A stretch of 63,720 nucleotides of DNA, taken from the IMG/VR virus record IMGVR_UViG_3300050015_000317, positions 1-63,720 of that record. The stretch is one strand, 5' to 3'. Under the pieces are notes generated by a model, which was not told where the DNA came from, ran no database searches, and saw only the letters and a program-made list of their open reading frames with translations. Source of the DNA: a virus. Of the stretch, positions 10,556-63,720 are shown piece after piece. The translations under genes were made by a program, and so were the position numbers. Each line of letters starts with the position of its first letter. The first letter of the stretch is position 1.

Positions 10556-11080
10556 ATGAAGACAGCAGCGTGGATTCTAGCGGTGGTCCTGTTTGTGCTC
10601 ACTGTCGTTATGATTCGGGGCCGCATCGTGGCGGATTGGGAGTATGAGAGCACCATTTCTGCACCGTGGCTGTTGGCCGATAAGGCATCGACCATACCCC
10701 AGAAGACAAAGTACATCGACCAGTTTGTTGCGAATTTGGAGGGCTTGCATCTTAATGACGAACACAGCGCCATTTTCTTGACGACGCCCAATAACTCGTT
10801 CGGGGAAAATCTGGCGCAGCTCAAAACGCTCCGGGTGCGGCTGCACGAGATAGAGAAGATGGACGTTACCAGCTTCCAGTACCAGACGGCCATGCAGCAG
10901 ATCACGGCCCAAGAGCAGGGCGAGGCCAAGAACATGCTGTCTGTCTTTGAGGGCACCTGGATCAAGGCGCATTTCTGGTATGTGTGGAATTGGATTGGTG
11001 GCGTGATTGTGGTACTGCTGAGTCTCGCCGCGTCGGCCGATGTCGGGCTATTTATTGCAGCCTACGAGGCGTGGTACTAG
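10556..11080 (+). CDS. membrane protein with two TM helices
   Basis: The 174-residue product has a TM helix at about 5-22 (AAWILAVVLFVLTVVMI), a 110-residue helical soluble middle and a C-terminal TM pair starting WNWIGGVIVVLLSLAA. ATG at 10556 is 8 bases after AAGGA; a TTG at 10550 is too close. It is the last gene of the rightward early operon. Its final 29 bases overlap, tail to tail, the leftward serine recombinase gene, and no terminator separates them. Confidence 0.65.
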   Translation: MKTAAWILAVVLFVLTVVMIRGRIVADWEYESTISAPWLLADKASTIPQKTKYIDQFVANLEGLHLNDEHSAIFLTTPNNSFGENLAQLKTLRVRLHEIEKMDVTSFQYQTAMQQITAQEQGEAKNMLSVFEGTWIKAHFWYVWNWIGGVIVVLLSLAASADVGLFIAAYEAWY

Positions 11081-11759
11081 TCTTGAGCGCCCTCCACACT
11101 GACGCCTCGGACCACGCCGAACCCCGTGGCGTGGTCTTGTTTTGCGCGTTCATCTCTGCGGCTATCCGCGCGTAGGTAGCGCCGCCCTCGCGCAGCGCCC
11201 GCATCGCGGGCAGCGTGTCCACTAGAAGCGACAAACTTCGCTCGTGGCGGTGCTCTGCGGCAGTGGCGCGGCCCTTTGCGGCAGCGATCTTCCACGCCTC
11301 TCGCTGTTGTGGCGTCCAAAATCCCTCCCGCTGACTGCCGAGCTTGACGCCGCGAGCCTTGGCCGCGCCAAGTGCCAGCTTGGTATTCAGGCTGATTCGG
11401 TCGGCCTCGTATTCCGCGACCAGGGCCATGATCCCGATCATAAACTTGTTGGCTTCCGGCATGTCGGCGGCTTTGAACTCAACGCCAGATTCGCGGATGG
11501 ACACCAGGAACGCGAGATTGCGCAGGAGCCTATCTAATCGCGCCACGATCAGGGTTGCCCCCGCCCGCTTACAGTGGGCCAGGGCCTTGAGCAGCTCTGG
11601 CCGGTCGCACCGCTTGCCAGATTCGACCTCGACGTAATCCGCTATGACGCCACCGTTGGCGTTGGTGTAGGTTGCTACGGCGACACGTTGCGCCTCTAAA
11701 CCTAGACCACTCCGGCCCTGACGATCTGTACTTACGCGGTAGTATGCAATTAGCTGCAT
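11052..11759 (-). CDS. serine recombinase (resolvase/invertase family)
   Basis: The 235-residue protein starts MQLIAYYRVSTDRQG with the catalytic serine at position 10. It continues with ESGKRCDRPELL and VARLDRLLRN, the arginine-rich part of the active site, followed by the long E helix. The C-terminus is a short HTH-type segment (YARIAAEMNAQ...) rather than the large zinc/coiled-coil domain of large serine integrases. It could be the phage integrase or a DNA invertase/resolvase. No inverted-repeat-bounded invertible segment was seen beside it. It is the last gene of the leftward operon, starting 2 bases after the previous stop. Confidence 0.88.
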   Translation of the reverse strand: MQLIAYYRVSTDRQGRSGLGLEAQRVAVATYTNANGGVIADYVEVESGKRCDRPELLKALAHCKRAGATLIVARLDRLLRNLAFLVSIRESGVEFKAADMPEANKFMIGIMALVAEYEADRISLNTKLALGAAKARGVKLGSQREGFWTPQQREAWKIAAAKGRATAAEHRHERSLSLLVDTLPAMRALREGGATYARIAAEMNAQNKTTPRGSAWSEASVWRALKTSTTPRRLQ

Positions 11760-11761
11760 GG

Positions 11762-12013
11762 CTACCCTTCCTTCATCGGTTCCACGGGCGGCAGCATCAC
11801 GGGCGCGGGTTCGGCCTTGGGCGCTTCGGGTTCCGGCTCCGGCGGATTGGTGATCTCCCACTGCCGCAGGCCGATCTCGATGATGTACTGCGCAGCGTTA
11901 GACAGGCCACGGCGCTCGACCTTGGCCACGCGCACGAGACGCGCCTTCACGGAGCGCAGCGCAGACACGTTCAAGGGCACAAACGGATCATCGGTGTTTC
12001 GGTATCGGGGCAT
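11762..12013 (-). CDS. hypothetical protein with Pro/Glu tail, 83 aa
   Basis: The N-terminal 50 residues (VPLNVSALRSVKARLVRVAK...LSNAAQYIIEIGLRQW) have the look of a ribbon-helix-helix DNA-binding protein. The last 25 are Pro/Glu/Ala repeats. It sits immediately upstream of the recombinase and might act as its directionality or repressor partner, but this is inferred from position and fold only. Confidence 0.6.
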   Translation of the reverse strand: MPRYRNTDDPFVPLNVSALRSVKARLVRVAKVERRGLSNAAQYIIEIGLRQWEITNPPEPEPEAPKAEPAPVMLPPVEPMKEG

Positions 12014-17684: not shown

Positions 17685-17780
17685 GGCTTAGACCTGGGCC
17701 GGATTAGAAGCCGGGTTCTTGCGTTTATGGCACCGGACACACGCGCCTGCCGAAAGACCCAGGACCAAAATCTGGTGCAG

Positions 17781-17870
17781 TTGGCGGTAGCTCAGTTGGT
17801 AGAGCCTTGGCATCCACTGTGCCTTCGGGCCCGTAGGATGCGTGTCGTGGGTTCGAGTCCCACCCGCCAG
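17781..17870 (+). tRNA. tRNA-like gene with atypical anticodon region
   Basis: The acceptor stem TTGGCGG (17781-17787)/CCGCCAG (17864-17870), D arm GCTC-AGTTGGTA-GAGC (17790-17805) and T arm GTGGG-TTCGAGT-CCCAC (17847-17863) are canonical. Between them, the best pairing is GCATCC (17810-17815)/GGATGC (17836-17841) enclosing a GCC-TTCG-GGC hairpin, so there is no normal 7-base loop. A competing class-II fold gives a loop with CAC in the anticodon position but lacks U33 and a purine at 37. No 3' CCA is encoded. It is a tRNA-like RNA, an intron-containing tRNA or a decayed tRNA. Confidence 0.6.
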
Positions 17871-17898
17871 TTTACTTTGGGGGTTGAAGGAATCGCTG

Positions 17899-38617: not shown

Positions 38618-38884
38618 ATGGGAACTGCTGTTGAACTAGCCGGGCGCGTCAAGGATAAGCGGCCTACCGCCTCCATCTACAACGTGCGGTATCTGGCAAC
38701 GAGCATGTCCGACACGGGGCTTCCAACCGTGGGTGGCACGGGCTTGACGCTGGACGTGGGCGACACAACCACTGTGCGGCCGATCTGTCAAGGCTTCAAG
38801 AAGGACGAACTTCGTTATCCGAAACGCGTCCTGGTCTTAGCCGTCTTTGAGTCGCCGTTCACGCGCACGGAGTTCCAAGCTTGA
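38618..38884 (+). CDS. hypothetical structural protein, 88 aa
   Basis: ATG 38618 follows TAGGGGAAATC. It is a short beta-type protein (NVRYLATSMSDTGLPTVGG) that ends overlapping the next TTG start. A longer frame back to 38357 lies entirely across the previous gene and is rejected. Confidence 0.55.
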   Translation: MGTAVELAGRVKDKRPTASIYNVRYLATSMSDTGLPTVGGTGLTLDVGDTTTVRPICQGFKKDELRYPKRVLVLAVFESPFTRTEFQA

Positions 38885-39822
38885 GCGACGTACTGACTCA
38901 ATACGAGATGATCCGCGCGATCTTGCCCGAAACCAGGGGGCGCGGGGGATGGCGGGGCCAGCGAGTCTTTGAGATTCCAAGGGAACTCGTAGACTCGCTG
39001 GTGCCTGCCGATGGCACGCCGTGGCCCGACCCTGTTCGGGACGTGAACAAGCAGCCCGTCGTCGTGGGCCACGTCCTGCAACGGGACTATCCCAAGCGCA
39101 AGACCCATTGCCGCCTGACCGTCATGTACAAGACTCTGACATGGCTGGAGGTGCTGGAACAGCGGCCTAACAAGGGCGTACTGTCCATCCGGCACTACAC
39201 CGTGAACGAGCGGCTCAAGACCAAACCGGTCGAGGGATGGCCGGGGTTCAAGATGGCGTGGACGAATCCCTATGAGATCGGCGTCAAGAGGCCAGACATC
39301 GTTCACCGGGCGACTCCGATCCTTGAAGGCCCTGACCCGACTGACCCCACCGGCCAGTCCAAGTACGTCATCACGGCGGGTTCCAACATCGTGTCGCGTG
39401 GCATGATTCGGTTCATGCTCGACGCCGTGGTTTCTAATTATGCCACGTTCGTTACGCAGTTTCAGGACAAGCTCGGCTTCGCGTCCATCACGCCCATGTC
39501 GATGTTCTGGGGCGCTACCGGGCAGCGGCAGACGCGGCTCATGGCTATTGCCACGTCGCCCTACACGCGGAGCGACAAGCACCTGCACCGCGTCCAGTAT
39601 TACTTCCTGGGCAAGCCGGAAGGCTGGTCGCAATACTGCGAATCGACCAAGTACGAGAACCGGGCGATCCAGCAGGAAATTCTCGACTCGCTAAACGTGG
39701 GCACGGAACGTTTCTCCACGAAGCACCTGTGGTTGCCGACTTCCGACGTGATGCGGTGTGACCTGATGGAGTACGCCAACTTCTCCCCGATCAACTCAAT
39801 GGTAATGGGTGTGACGTGGTAA
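38881..39822 (+). CDS. virion protein, possible tail tubular B/nozzle, 313 aa
   Basis: It starts at TTG 38881 within a 4-base overlap. The 313-residue soluble protein (ETRGRGGWRGQRVFEIPREL, VTAGSNI-type strands, HLWLPTSDVMRC) has no enzymatic motif. Its size and position behind small connector genes suggest part of the tail nozzle, but it is not recognised. Confidence 0.5.
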   Translation: MSDVLTQYEMIRAILPETRGRGGWRGQRVFEIPRELVDSLVPADGTPWPDPVRDVNKQPVVVGHVLQRDYPKRKTHCRLTVMYKTLTWLEVLEQRPNKGVLSIRHYTVNERLKTKPVEGWPGFKMAWTNPYEIGVKRPDIVHRATPILEGPDPTDPTGQSKYVITAGSNIVSRGMIRFMLDAVVSNYATFVTQFQDKLGFASITPMSMFWGATGQRQTRLMAIATSPYTRSDKHLHRVQYYFLGKPEGWSQYCESTKYENRAIQQEILDSLNVGTERFSTKHLWLPTSDVMRCDLMEYANFSPINSMVMGVTW

Positions 39823-52870: not shown

Positions 52871-53110
52871 ATGGACACGATCAAGCAACTTCTGGCCAAG
52901 TACGCGACGCCGTTTCTGGTCAAGATCGTCCTTCGCGGATTGGCCTACGGCACGGCGTTTGTCAGTGCCAAACTAGCGATTGAATCTCCCGACGCGGACG
53001 CCCTGACCAAGACCGCCGAGTGGGGCGGGGCGGCACTCGCGGCGGGCCTGGGCCTGCTGATCGACTATCTCCAGCACCGTTGGCAGGACAAGCAACCGGC
53101 CAAAGCCTAA
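52871..53110 (+). CDS. holin candidate, 79 aa
   Basis: ATG 52871 is 8 bases after AGGAG; an in-frame ATG at 52865 is too close. The product has two membrane segments, FLVKIVLRGLAYGTAFVSAK and AALAAGLGLLIDYL, and a charged C-terminus (QHRWQDKQPAKA), the usual class II holin pattern. It is the last rightward gene before the strong terminator. Confidence 0.65.
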   Translation: MDTIKQLLAKYATPFLVKIVLRGLAYGTAFVSAKLAIESPDADALTKTAEWGGAALAAGLGLLIDYLQHRWQDKQPAKA

Positions 53111-53134
53111 GTAGTCTACAATTTGCAGAACAAG

Positions 53135-53163
53135 CGCCCCGTCAGAAATGGCGGGGCGTTTTT
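53135..53163 (+). terminator. rho-independent terminator of the late region
   Basis: CGCCCCG (53135-53141) pairs with CGGGGCG (53152-53158) around a 10-base loop, followed directly by five Ts. It closes the late transcript just before the structured RNA's own promoter. Confidence 0.88.
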
Positions 53164-53187
53164 ATGCGCAGATTTCGATATTTGGGC

Positions 53188-53217
53188 TTGACTTGTGCGG
53201 GCGGGGTTTAATAAGAT
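53188..53217 (+). promoter_or_regulatory. promoter of the structured RNA
   Basis: TTGACT (53188-53193), an 18-base spacer and TAAGAT (53212-53217) place the start near 53224, at the first base of the long-range helix CCGATGC. It lies directly after the late terminator, so the RNA is transcribed independently of the late operon. Confidence 0.62.
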
Positions 53218-53222
53218 TGAAA

Positions 53223-53686
53223 CCGATGCCAAGGACGGCACACATCTTGACTGACGCAAACACCGCGACAGGCTCGCTCGGTTCGATTCCGAGACGCGGA
53301 CTTTTTGTAGACATAGCCCAGAGCATCGGGAGTGACGTGTTGACTCTATCCGGTTTCGCAAAGTGCGTTTTGCCGGGACCAAAAACGCAAGGAAACTGCC
53401 GCACAGCCACGGGAACCCGTTGCCAGATTGAAGGCGAAAGCCTGCGGCTGGCTACTCAAAACGGGGCGGCGCGACGTTGCAAGTTTAGTAATCGGCGCAA
53501 AAACGAGCGGAGTCCAGACCTGACCCTGTCTGCCGCGAACGTGTTCCTAGCCCTGCGCTGGTTCGTTTTAAGCAACGCTTGAGTCAACGTAGACCCTTTA
53601 ATCACCCTGAAGCCTAAGAGCCTTGTGGTTCAAAAGGCAAGACCAGGGTGAACACGGGAAAGAGGGTCGAGTGTGCGCAGAGCGCA
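53223..53686 (+). ncRNA. large structured RNA candidate, ~465 nt
   Basis: The 600-base gap between the late terminator and the next gene has no acceptable ORF, and the 144-codon one has biased, low-complexity composition. Perfect helices can be nested: 223-229/323-329, 263-267/295-299, 277-281/289-293 (T-loop-like TTCGATT), 339-346/581-588 (long range, 8 bp), 364-371/382-389, 398-402/444-448, 409-412/417-420, 432-435/440-443 (GAAA tetraloop), 515-519/528-532, 536-540/561-565, 592-597/663-668, 603-609/644-650, 620-624/634-638 and 674-678/682-686 (each plus 53000). It has its own promoter. The class is unassigned; it could be one of the large ornate phage RNAs or a new one. Confidence 0.72.
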
Positions 53687-53709
53687 GAAGACGTTGAAGG
53701 GTGAAGTAG

Positions 53710-53916
53710 ATGAACACGGCAGAAACGGCAGCTACAATCAAGGCGATGATTGAATCCTGCGCCAGCGAACGTGGTGGTTACAGGAAAGCCCTCATCGACC
53801 TTTTGGGCGTTCAGTACGAACGTCCGTTCAATCTTCCGACGGCATGGAAGAAGCGGCTGGAGCAGTTCGGCGACGTGGCCAAGGTCGAACAGGCGGCCGC
53901 GCTGGGTAATTTTTGA
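53710..53916 (+). CDS. hypothetical protein, 68 aa
   Basis: AAGGGTGAAG precedes the ATG. The soluble helical protein (KAMIESCASERGGYRKALID...AWKKRLEQFGDVAKVEQAA) lies directly after the structured RNA, whose 3' bases could pair with its leader (ACGTTGA 53691-53697 can pair with 53584-53590). The following 224 bases (53917-54140) hold no gene or clear signal. Confidence 0.6.
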   Translation: MNTAETAATIKAMIESCASERGGYRKALIDLLGVQYERPFNLPTAWKKRLEQFGDVAKVEQAAALGNF

Positions 53917-54140
53917 TTAGGGGGATTTTCCTGGTTGACTTGTAGGGTATTTGCCTATAGCTTTCACGTTCAGTGACCTCGCCAGTTTGAGGAGGCCGGC
54001 CCAACTCAAAATCACAATTGCGGGAAGGCAGGACGTTATGTGCAGCACCGTCATATCTGTGGCAACCCCATGTTCCTCTGCCCACGCCGAGCTGCACGAG
54101 CTTGTGGATCGCCTGCCCGTAGAACATGCGCAGGCCGCAG

Positions 54141-54539
54141 TCAGCGTTTTGCGGGCGTTCCTTGATCGCCAAGACCAGCACGCAGGTCGCCGCCAAACTT
54201 TGCAGCGTCCTCGTCTGCTGTCCCAAGCAGGGCCTCGACCATCCCTATAGCTTTCAGCCGTCGCCGATAGGGGAGCTTGCGGAACGCTGTCAGCAGTTCT
54301 TTCTCATCAGCATCCGGGGGCATCAGACTCTCGATAGTTTCTCCCGGCGTGTGCAATGAGCCTGGCGGCAGCGCCAAGGCCGCTTCGATGCTGGCCGCGA
54401 GCTTTCGACTGGGGCGCAAGCGACCTTGCCGAATCCGAGACATGGTATTCTCGGAACATCCAACCTTGTCGGCCAGCGACCGCGCCGTAATCCGAGAGGC
54501 GCGTAACGCATGGTTCAATTTGTTGCCGTCAAACTCCAT
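54141..54539 (-). CDS. XRE-family repressor candidate
   Basis: The 132-residue leftward protein has an N-terminal HTH of the lambda-repressor type (ARSLADKVGCSENTMSRIRQ, about residues 18-37). A helical C-terminal part without the Ser/Lys auto-cleavage pair follows. ATG 54539 is preferred over the TTG two codons upstream. It faces the early promoter across a control region with clustered CGCAA/TTGCG motifs, the arrangement expected of a lysogeny repressor. The missing protease dyad suggests induction by another route. Confidence 0.8.
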   Translation of the reverse strand: MEFDGNKLNHALRASRITARSLADKVGCSENTMSRIRQGRLRPSRKLAASIEAALALPPGSLHTPGETIESLMPPDADEKELLTAFRKLPYRRRLKAIGMVEALLGTADEDAAKFGGDLRAGLGDQGTPAKR

Positions 54540-54547
54540 AATCAATT

Positions 54548-54812: not shown

Positions 54813-54833
54813 GCCGTGTTTCTGGGACGTGCC

Positions 54834-55031: not shown

Positions 55032-55238
55032 CTCATTGCGACTCCTGGCCGTCCATTGCCCCTGATTCATCCCTGATAGCATTGACGGTAGCACAGGTGT
55101 CCAAATCTGTCAAGGCACAAAATTCCACTCTCGGCGGGCATTCAGGGTGCCTTCCGAAAACCTGGCGCGATACGTACCACGGTCGCGTCAGGGTATTCTT
55201 CCCGGTCGCGTCTTGTGGCGCGACTATGCACCGAGGCC

Positions 55239-55460
55239 GCCAGCGGGTAGTTGCGCCCGCTGGCACTTTTGCTTCCCCAGCACGGCTCACCCCGGCCGTG
55301 CGTCCCACGCCGCCCGCGCGCGTATTCCCCCCGTCGCGCCGGGCGGCCCTTTGCACTATCCCCCTGCCGACGATGCACATGACGACAGTCACCCCCCAGG
55401 CAGGGACTAACCACGGGCCGCGTTCTGGCGAAGTGATGGTCGCCGTTTCGCTCGCGGCCC
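55239..55460. ncRNA. cluster of GC-rich hairpins in a 620-bp gene-free stretch
   Basis: 55032-55654 has no convincing gene. It contains perfect hairpins 55239-55247/55256-55264 (9 bp, then ACTTTTGCTT), 55280-55286/55295-55301 (7 bp), 55309-55316/55340-55347 (8 bp plus 5 bp inside) and 55415-55422/55453-55460 (8 bp enclosing 55427-55431/55440-55444). The first could be a terminator of a short early transcript; the cluster could also be a second structured RNA or the replication or attachment region. Confidence 0.45.
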
Positions 55461-57170: not shown

Positions 57171-58019
57171 ATGGCAGACAATGACCTGAACACCGGCGAC
57201 CGGAACACCGGCGGCTGGAACACCGGCAACCGGAACACCGGCGACTGGAACACCGGCGGCTGGAACACCGGCAACCGGAACACCGGCGACTGGAACACCG
57301 GCCACTGGAACACCGGCGGCCTGAACACCGGCGACCGGAACACCGGCGACCGGAATACCGGCCACTGGAACACCGGCGACTGGAACACCGGCAACTGGAA
57401 CACCGGCGGCCGGAACACCGGCGACCGGAACACCGGCGACCGGAACACCGGCCACTGGAACACCGGCAACCTGAACACCGGCCACTGGAACACCGGCCAC
57501 TGGAACACCGGCAACCTGAACACCGGCGACTGGAACACCGGCAACCTGAACACCGGCAACTGGAACACCGGCGGCCGGAACACCGGTTTCTTCTGTACCC
57601 AAACACCGCAGCCCACCTTCTTCGACAAGCCTTGGGACGGTACCTGGGAACAGGCATATGCCCTTATCCCCTACTTTGAGTTACCCGTTGGGGCCATCTG
57701 GACACCCATCGAACAGATGACCGAACAAGAAAAGGCCGAAAACCCTAACCACGCCACGATCGGCGGCTATCTCCGTGCCTCCACGTTGACTATCCAACAG
57801 GCATTCCCTTTAGCCTGGGCCAAGATGAATAAGGCGACCCAGCAGAGATTCCTGGGCCTGCCGAACTTTGATGCGGAGAAGTTCCTGGCCTGCACGGGGG
57901 TCGATGTCCGCAAGCCAGCGACGATCACGATTGATGGGCAGGCGATGGACGTATCTGCCGACCAGCTAGCGCAGATCAGGGGTGTTCTCAACGTGACAAT
58001 TCAAGGGAAAGGAAAATAG
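57171..58019 (+). CDS. NTG-pentapeptide-repeat protein
   Basis: Residues 7-141 are 27 tandem five-residue units 'NTG-x-x', where x is G/D/N/H and then W/R/L. Each unit is 15 bp with an almost invariant AACACCGGC core. The C-terminal 140 residues (FFDKPWDGTWEQAYALIPYF, MTEQEKAENPNHATIGGYL, LPNFDAEKFLACTGVDV) form a domain found in similar phage repeat proteins. Repeats of this type fold as a right-handed helix and can mimic DNA. The role is unknown. Confidence 0.75.
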   Translation: MADNDLNTGDRNTGGWNTGNRNTGDWNTGGWNTGNRNTGDWNTGHWNTGGLNTGDRNTGDRNTGHWNTGDWNTGNWNTGGRNTGDRNTGDRNTGHWNTGNLNTGHWNTGHWNTGNLNTGDWNTGNLNTGNWNTGGRNTGFFCTQTPQPTFFDKPWDGTWEQAYALIPYFELPVGAIWTPIEQMTEQEKAENPNHATIGGYLRASTLTIQQAFPLAWAKMNKATQQRFLGLPNFDAEKFLACTGVDVRKPATITIDGQAMDVSADQLAQIRGVLNVTIQGKGK

Positions 58020-61509: not shown

Positions 61510-61625
61510 GCCGTAGTAGCTCAGTTGGTAGAGCCGCGAGACCATTCTTTTGGAGCGCTTGCGATCACAGGCGAGAAACTCCTGCAAGGGTGGCGAGGTC
61601 GCGGGTTCGAGGCCCGCCTACGGCA
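61510..61625 (+). tRNA. second tRNA-like gene, extended anticodon region
   Basis: Acceptor GCCGTAG (61510-61516)/CTACGGC (61618-61624), D arm GCTC-AGTTGGTA-GAGC (61519-61534), T arm GCGGG-TTCGAGG-CCCGC (61601-61617) and A at the discriminator position are canonical. The 65-base middle (61536-61600) replaces an ordinary anticodon arm with an imperfect hairpin 61536-61558 and a second one (TTG...CAA with CAGG/CCTG). No CCA is encoded. A weak promoter TTGACA/TTCAAG lies at 61399-61427. It resembles the gene at 17781 in having standard D/T arms but no anticodon loop. Confidence 0.6.
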
Positions 61626-61659
61626 GTTGAACGAGTAACTAACCCCTTTAGGAGCAATC

Positions 61660-62000: not shown

Positions 62001-62198
62001 ATGAACAAGACGAAGTATCCGATCTGGTGGACTGATCGACTCGGTTGTGCTGACTGGCGTCGCATATCGAAAGATGAGGCGTTGCAGTTCAAAACGCCTA
62101 CTGGCCATTGGGCCTACTGCTGGACCAGTCCGACGAACCGCCAGATGGATAAAGAACACACCCGCTGCGACTCACGCGGCCGAGCGCTGGGAAGATGA
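62001..62198 (+). CDS. YPIWW-type small protein, copy 1 of 3
   Basis: The 65-residue protein has YPIWWTDR at the start and HTRCDSRGRALG at the end. The same pattern (YPIxW...RCxSxGxAL) recurs in 62839 (C-terminal part) and 63207, showing duplication. ATGA overlap links it to the next gene. The function is unknown. Confidence 0.6.
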   Translation: MNKTKYPIWWTDRLGCADWRRISKDEALQFKTPTGHWAYCWTSPTNRQMDKEHTRCDSRGRALGR

Positions 62199-62511
62199 GC
62201 GACACTATCGAACTCATGGACTGCGAGCGAGTCCTCCTGGACGCCATCGGCGACCGCAAGGCGACACGGGACACCGTTGCTTCCGCCTACTGGATGTCGC
62301 TGCGGTCGAGTTATGGGCGCACGGTGGACTGGAGCAAGGTCAATCATGCGATCTTGGCCCGGTGGTCGAGGGCGGCCCTGGAATACATCAAGACGAAGGC
62401 ATGGAAGGACTAACAAAATGAGGCTACTCCGCACCATCGGTTTTGTCCTGCGGTTCGCTTGGCGCGACTGCTGTTCGCTGCCTGAGAATCGCGTGGGCCT
62501 GTCGCGATGGC
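62177..62511. repeat. 335-bp perfect direct repeat (partner 63386-63720)
   Basis: The sequence 62177-62511 is identical, without mismatch, to 63386-63720 (offset 1209). It contains the 72-residue gene and the start of the 52/57-residue gene. The first divergent bases lie outside these edges. Together with similarity downstream (62598-62705 and 217-320) it indicates a recent tandem duplication of a module of about 1.2 kb. Confidence 0.9.
62195..62413 (+). CDS. hypothetical protein, 72 aa (copy 1)
   Basis: This 72-residue protein (MSDTIELMDCERVLLDAIGD) is identical to the one at 63404. It is helical with an aromatic/basic C-terminus. An ATGA overlap links it to the previous gene. The two identical copies argue for recent duplication or gene conversion. 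Confidence 0.6.
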   Translation: MSDTIELMDCERVLLDAIGDRKATRDTVASAYWMSLRSSYGRTVDWSKVNHAILARWSRAALEYIKTKAWKD

Positions 62512-63210: not shown

Positions 63211-63407
63211 AACACGAGACCTATCCGATCTATTGGAAGCGCACCACGCGCAGTCGCAAGCCCGCATTCGCGCGTTGGAAATGGCGCGGGCGCATGAACT
63301 ACCGGAGCGGCGATTTCTGGTTCGTGTGTCCCGACAACGCAAGCACGATGTGGATGGACGAGTCTTATGTCCGCTGCACCTCCACCGGCCGAGCGCTGGG
63401 AAGATGA
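63207..63407 (+). CDS. YPIYW-type small protein, copy 3 of 3
   Basis: The 66-residue protein (MKHETYPIYWKRTTRS...DESYVRCTSTGRALG) shares the same start and end pattern as the gene at 62001. It overlaps both neighbours by 4 bases (ATGA). Confidence 0.6.
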   Translation: MKHETYPIYWKRTTRSRKPAFARWKWRGRMNYRSGDFWFVCPDNASTMWMDESYVRCTSTGRALGR

Positions 63408-63622
63408 GCGACACTATCGAACTCATGGACTGCGAGCGAGTCCTCCTGGACGCCATCGGCGACCGCAAGGCGACACGGGACACCGTTGCTTCCGCCTACT
63501 GGATGTCGCTGCGGTCGAGTTATGGGCGCACGGTGGACTGGAGCAAGGTCAATCATGCGATCTTGGCCCGGTGGTCGAGGGCGGCCCTGGAATACATCAA
63601 GACGAAGGCATGGAAGGACTAA
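63404..63622 (+). CDS. hypothetical protein, 72 aa (copy 2)
   Basis: Base-for-base identical to 62195-62413 and within the 335-bp repeat 63386-63720. ATGA overlap with the preceding gene. The role is unknown. Confidence 0.6.
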   Translation: MSDTIELMDCERVLLDAIGDRKATRDTVASAYWMSLRSSYGRTVDWSKVNHAILARWSRAALEYIKTKAWKD

Positions 63623-63626
63623 CAAA

Positions 63627-63720
63627 ATGAGGCTACTCCGCACCATCGGTTTTGTCCTGCGGTTCGCTTGGCGCGACTGCTGTTCGCTGCCTGAGAATCG
63701 CGTGGGCCTGTCGCGATGGC
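63627..63720 (+). CDS. start of the small basic protein gene (cut by window end)
   Basis: The 31-codon start is identical to the genes at 34 and 62418 and ends at the window edge. If the molecule is circular it continues as the gene at 34-207. Confidence 0.55.
   Translation, partial: MRLLRTIGFVLRFAWRDCCSLPENRVGLSRW

Follow-up and report, generated by a model that had tools for sequence, protein, structure and literature searches.

We propose, tentatively and at slightly less than even confidence, that a non-coding stretch between the late operon and the repressor gene of this phage is the 5′ leader of a 68-codon gene, ORF68, and that a structured domain at the 3′ end of the leader controls translation of that gene. 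The window analyzed is the complete virus record (IMGVR_UViG_3300050015_000317; 63,720 nucleotides), and all structural statements made here are computed from this one sequence. An initial annotation had proposed for the same stretch a single noncoding RNA of about 465 nt with its own promoter, possibly like the large ornate phage RNAs GOLLD or ROOL, and had pointed to a pairing beside the ribosome site of the next gene that hinted at a switch.

The 63.7-kb record encodes a terminase, an SU10-type portal, a major head protein and a 2449-aa protein, together with exonuclease and RecT-like recombination genes, a Cro/C1-type repressor (54141–54545, minus strand) and a serine recombinase (11052–11861, minus strand), the sole recombinase, 21 kb from the leader around the circle. 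A search for a tyrosine integrase (PF00589) gave no match anywhere in the window. The ends of the record are identical over 127 bp, which fits a circular assembly. A 350-bp repeat (98.6%; 62162–62511 versus 63371–63720) lies near the right end and its last 127 bp equal the left end (1–127), and the apparent circularity could stem from this repeat and not from true circular permutation. In the collections searched, the phage is practically without close relatives, since its closest terminase relatives have 41% identity and the one exception, an identical 22.7-kb fragment, stops short of the leader region.

Position 53110 is the end of the late operon, and next on the plus strand comes its intrinsic terminator (53132–53166), a GC hairpin with a 13-nt inverted repeat and then TTTTT, the hairpin of which (53132–53161) has a z of about −4.4 in a 70-nt window; the initial annotation had placed a terminator here as well. 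Codon usage marks the DNA from 53111 to 53709 (~0.6 kb) as non-coding in each frame tested, as expected for the noncoding RNA proposed earlier. A 144-codon open frame over the region and the minus-strand frames were rejected as genes, scoring between −0.18 and −0.57 bits per codon when measured against the codon usage of the phage itself. By a crude measure of coding signal, a gap of ~600 bp is unexceptional in this genome. A promoter belonging to the stretch itself is plausible: the promoter-like sequence TTGACT-18-TAAGAT (53188–53217, plus strand) matches the consensus at 9 of 12 positions and would start transcription near 53224, and sites scoring likewise number four in 2.3 kb, where 0.7 would be expected. 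Directly 3′ of the stretch lies ORF68 (53710–53916, plus strand) with the ribosome site GAAGGG, giving the order promoter, leader, ribosome site and coding gene. ORF68 scores 0.26 bits per codon, with a mean of 0.23 for known genes and a 99th percentile of −0.17 for wrong frames, and is thus a genuine coding gene that scores like proven phage genes. It could be assigned to no protein family and no homologue was found, and the AlphaFold model of ORF68 alone, four helices at low confidence (pLDDT 57), is uninterpretable. A terminator scan scored no intrinsic terminator near 53700, ahead of ORF68, and hence a transcript from ~53224 would be expected to enter ORF68, which favors a leader over a free-standing RNA.

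Several repeats surround these features. Similar promoter-like −35 stretches, each with TTGACTTGT, occur at 53177–53196 and 53924–53943, on either side of the leader and ORF68, the second directed into the antisense strand of the repressor gene. The hexamer TTGACT is present 24 times in the window and five of these copies fall within 53188–53940; a role as integrase arm sites was set aside because the window has no tyrosine integrase. The 13-mer CCTATAGCTTTCA occurs twice, near and inside the repressor gene (53954–53966 and 54246–54258), and is possibly an operator or a product of chance. Further on, five consecutive strong GC hairpins (55200–55420, plus strand; z −4.6), a candidate structured RNA or replication or regulatory site, lie just past the 71-aa gene that stands opposite the repressor, in a stretch of ~740 bp with no coding signal.

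The excess stability of the leader is located at its 3′ end. The structured domain (53561–53715, plus strand) extends beyond the end of the RNA as first annotated and through the start codon at 53710, and it has a z of −4.76 with none of 100 shuffles as stable; for the intervals 53580–53709 (z −4.24) and 53558–53718 (z −4.54), none of 200 shuffles was as stable. When 530 windows of 120 nt were scanned across the genome, the one at 53565 came tenth (z −3.3), within the lowest ~2%. Only this 3′ domain clearly exceeds chance stability, and the hairpin with a GAAA tetraloop that had been noted earlier (53421–53452, plus strand; z −3.73, one of 200 shuffles as stable) is a local element. The predicted fold of the domain is a three-way junction formed by P1, a long arm (P2/P2b) and a short hairpin (P3). 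P1 (53584–53590/53691–53697) is the TCAACGT/ACGTTGA pairing on which the idea of a switch was based. The long arm is made up of P2 (53592–53599/53661–53668), P2b (53602–53609/53644–53651) and two inner stems (53612–53615/53635–53638 and 53618–53622/53627–53631), and P3 (53674–53678/53682–53686) is TGCGC-AGA-GCGCA. The start codon itself is covered by P0, in which GTTCGTTT (53561–53568) pairs with AGATGAAC of the start codon region (53708–53715), and a weak pairing (53576–53580/53699–53703) covers the ribosome site. In the computed fold of a long transcript, the pairing probability is about 1.0 for the AUG of ORF68 and about 0.8 for its ribosome site, and the start of ORF68 is the third most occluded among 36 start regions of the phage, with those at 54816 and 31265 ranking higher. 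The predicted occlusion is notable but not unique, and start-codon sequestration is common.

A second pairing competes with this domain. The octamers GTTGACTC (53339–53346) and GAGTCAAC (53581–53588) on the plus strand are exact complements, as annotated, and the 8-bp long-range helix that they can form occupies 53581–53588, so that it excludes P1 and crosses P0. Its mean pairing probability is 0.74 for a transcript that ends at 53709 and about 0 for one that ends at 53760 or beyond, and over the latter range the probability of P1 climbs to 0.89–0.97. By constrained energies, which are computed without cotranscriptional kinetics, almost the whole ensemble is in the long-helix state as long as the transcript stops no later than 53709, and for transcript ends of 53720 to 53920 this state lies 2 to 9 kcal/mol above the alternative. 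The suggested switch is possible in that two mutually exclusive pairings beside the ribosome site exchange in computed energies, but the long helix taken alone is within chance when helix counts are compared with expectation. From the computed energies we infer that the long helix and P0/P1 may also exchange in the cell.

The mechanism that we favor would operate as follows. ORF68 would be a “moron”-type gene, expressed independently from a promoter of its own in the interval that separates the late operon from the repressor gene. Over its final 155 nt, the leader would adopt the three-way junction of P1, P2 and P3 extended by P0, and P0 lying on the start codon and partly on the ribosome site would hold translation down, while pairing of GAGTCAAC with GTTGACTC instead would leave the ribosome site free. 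Until the polymerase reaches the start codon, the long helix would form and P0/P1 would not lie over the ribosome site; later, in the longer transcript, the covered form would be the more stable one. Such an exchange may serve as a timing switch or, should a signal act on it, as a signal-dependent one, and a T-arm minihelix further upstream (see below) may be an attenuator within the leader. A leader of this kind would share with structured leaders such as riboswitch-like or autoregulated 5′ UTRs and RNA thermometers a putative promoter of its own, a non-coding leader, and a stable domain that is predicted to pair with the ribosome site and AUG of the next gene in competition with an upstream pairing. 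It differs from the known examples in that it has no known aptamer, ligand or binding protein and no Rfam match, and in the absence of homologues no conserved core can be named.

The T-loop-like hairpin of the initial annotation is a perfect tRNA T-arm (CTCGG-TTCGATT-CCGAG, 53277–53293) and is beyond chance expectation, with three such T-arms on the plus strand of the window and none in 60 shuffles of the window. It forms part of a tRNA-like minihelix (53263–53306, plus strand) that consists of a CCGCG/CGCGG outer stem (53263–53267/53295–53299), the T-arm and a 9-nt linker, followed by AC-TTTTT. The outer stem is predicted when 53258–53302 is folded alone (−12.9 kcal/mol, z −0.58) and is not predicted in the fold of 53224–53310. 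It resembles the tRNA acceptor/T-arm minihelix known from RNase P model substrates and tRNA-like structures in that a perfect 5-bp T-arm with a TTCGATT loop is carried on a GC helix and the 9-nt linker stands in for the D and anticodon arms. The helix here, however, has 5 pairs where 7 are usual, is flanked by A-A at either end, has no CCA or RCCA end, and would lie inside a longer transcript. The element may be an attenuator-like hairpin or terminator, a mimic of tRNA, or what is left of a decayed tRNA end. ARAGORN and the Rfam models made no tRNA or tmRNA call at 53.2–53.7 kb, and blastn matches to a Streptomyces phage tRNA-Tyr reflect the T-arm. A permuted tmRNA or permuted tRNA was rejected, as reading by eye revealed no partner strand TCCGCGT, D-arm or CCA.

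The other two plus-strand T-arms are located in two tRNA-like genes (17779–17872 and 61510–61626, both plus strand) that look normal in their acceptor, D and T arms but have an extended stem in place of the anticodon arm. In the gene at 17.8 kb this stem is UUCG-capped and has an internal loop, in that at 61.5 kb it is a long multi-part arm, and neither has a normal 7-nt anticodon loop. They may therefore be non-decoding tRNA-like RNAs, and they are possibly more unusual than the leader itself. Elsewhere in the window, a long near-perfect inverted repeat (GGCCAGCGAGTCT.../...AGACTCGCTGGTGCC, 38949–39005, plus strand; window z −8.0) lies inside the reading frame 38881–39822, and a highly repetitive pentapeptide-repeat gene (Pentapeptide_2, 57183–57586) yields a false tRNA-Trp call on the minus strand.

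The minihelix is central to two other explanations of the region. The TTTTT that follows it could end most transcripts at ~53306, which is an argument against a leader that reaches ORF68, and the 53188 promoter would then produce an RNA of ~80 nt, with the remainder of the stretch a weakly transcribed leader or spacer. A GC-rich stem that encloses the T-arm, reaches −12.9 kcal/mol when folded alone and stands two bases ahead of the T-run agrees with such a stop. A one-sided 9-nt bulge makes for a poor terminator, however, the outer stem is lost from the predicted fold of the sequence from 53224 to 53310, and the terminator scan left the T-arm hairpin unscored, and we regard a short RNA of this kind as quite improbable. 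The same element could instead be a phage attachment site, relic or active, which would have acquired 53277–53301 as a copy of a host tRNA gene's 3′ end. Many temperate phages carry attP-int between lysis genes and repressor, which is the location of this element, and it does resemble a tRNA 3′ end followed by a T-run. Nevertheless, the 24-mer that joins the T-arm and acceptor strand was found in none of 84,980 GTDB species genomes, and both a 24-mer shifted by one base and a 23-mer that includes the linker were absent from viral contigs. The T-arm with its acceptor-like strand thus copies no known host tRNA end, and this counts, if not with finality, against attP. In addition, the window has no match to a tyrosine integrase, serine recombinases rarely use tRNA genes, and the only recombinase of this phage is of the serine type and distant from the site. 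An attachment site thus has a slim chance of being correct.

A free-standing RNA of about 465–490 nt, representing a new class with the minihelix and the 3′ domain as two modules, is unlikely in our estimation. The promoter-like site, the non-coding sequence, the T-arm, the structured 3′ domain and the GAAA hairpin would all be accommodated by it, and large functional RNAs with pseudoknots need not have a low z along their full length. What speaks against it is that the 477 nt from 53224 to 53700 are no better than dinucleotide shuffles in minimum free energy (z −0.06), that shuffles are more stable than the first 359 nt (z +1.45), and that its 3′ end has no terminator and its structured domain extends over the start codon of a genuine gene. 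Of perfect helices with a minimum length of 8 bp there are three where 1.65 are expected, and with a minimum of 7 bp eight where 6.65 are expected. Given these z values and helix counts, the nested set of helices in the initial annotation is not evidence for a large evolved fold, nor do these values disprove one, since RNAs with pseudoknots can lack a stability signal; the 3′ part is genuinely structured, but a single ornate RNA of ~465 nt, the 5′ three quarters of which have no excess stability, is not supported. The suggested kinship with GOLLD or ROOL, RNAs with a complex, covarying fold that includes pseudoknots and with a homo-multimeric cage, is not supported either. Their models gave no match at gathering thresholds, nor at E up to 1 across the window, and searches of the whole window and sub-regions at gathering and permissive thresholds assigned no Rfam family. 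At E up to 10, the surrounding 851 nt gave six unrelated chance-level matches only. A U6atac match was at chance level, and RNase P RNA was rejected because its best match (RNaseP-T), with 15.8 bits (E 0.22–0.61), stayed below the cut-off of 60. ROOL env-120 has 659 nt, GOLLD often exceeds 800 nt, and both are often near tRNA islands (PMC12286853). The RNA proposed here shares with them a phage-borne non-coding stretch of several hundred nucleotides, but at the proposed ~465 nt it would be shorter, it adjoins no tRNA island, the only tRNA-like genes being those at 17.8 and 61.5 kb, and it has no computed sign of a global fold.

It is also conceivable, if improbable, that the region has no RNA function and is a divergent or decayed intergenic stretch, such as a lost gene, with one domain that is stable by chance. 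Excess structure is absent from most of the stretch, similar z values occur in other windows of the genome, and conservation could not be shown. Homologues of the RNA were found neither by blastn in phages and plasmids nor in 50 terminase-related records, and the proteins of 68, 114, 2449, 535 and 298 aa used as homologue queries, tblastn and peptide-pattern scans for the RNA region or ORF68, and two single-sequence covariance models (R1 and R2) run over related contigs all gave nothing. Because no collection searched contained a homologue, no covariation test is possible, and this weighs against the leader reading as well, just as the lack of homologues weighs against a free-standing RNA. On the other hand, the 3′ domain and the T-arm are two independent features beyond chance, and the promoter-like site, leader, ribosome site and coding gene stand in order.

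The leader of ORF68 is at present a singleton with a computed structure, and its value is that of a well-defined test case, not of a new RNA class. A more far-reaching version, to which we give little credence, is that the 5′ minihelix and the start-covering 3′ junction cooperate via the long-range helix as a new class of phage RNA, for example as a leader that senses the tRNA-handling machinery of the host (RNase P, TruB/TrmA, EF-Tu or tRNA-targeting defence), or is processed by it, and in this way sets the translation of ORF68. If the leader assignment is right, the region would be an unclassified phage leader RNA with control over a small orphan gene that adjoins the immunity region, where lysogen expression often matters, and through the T-arm within the leader a connection to host tRNA-handling enzymes could be tested directly.
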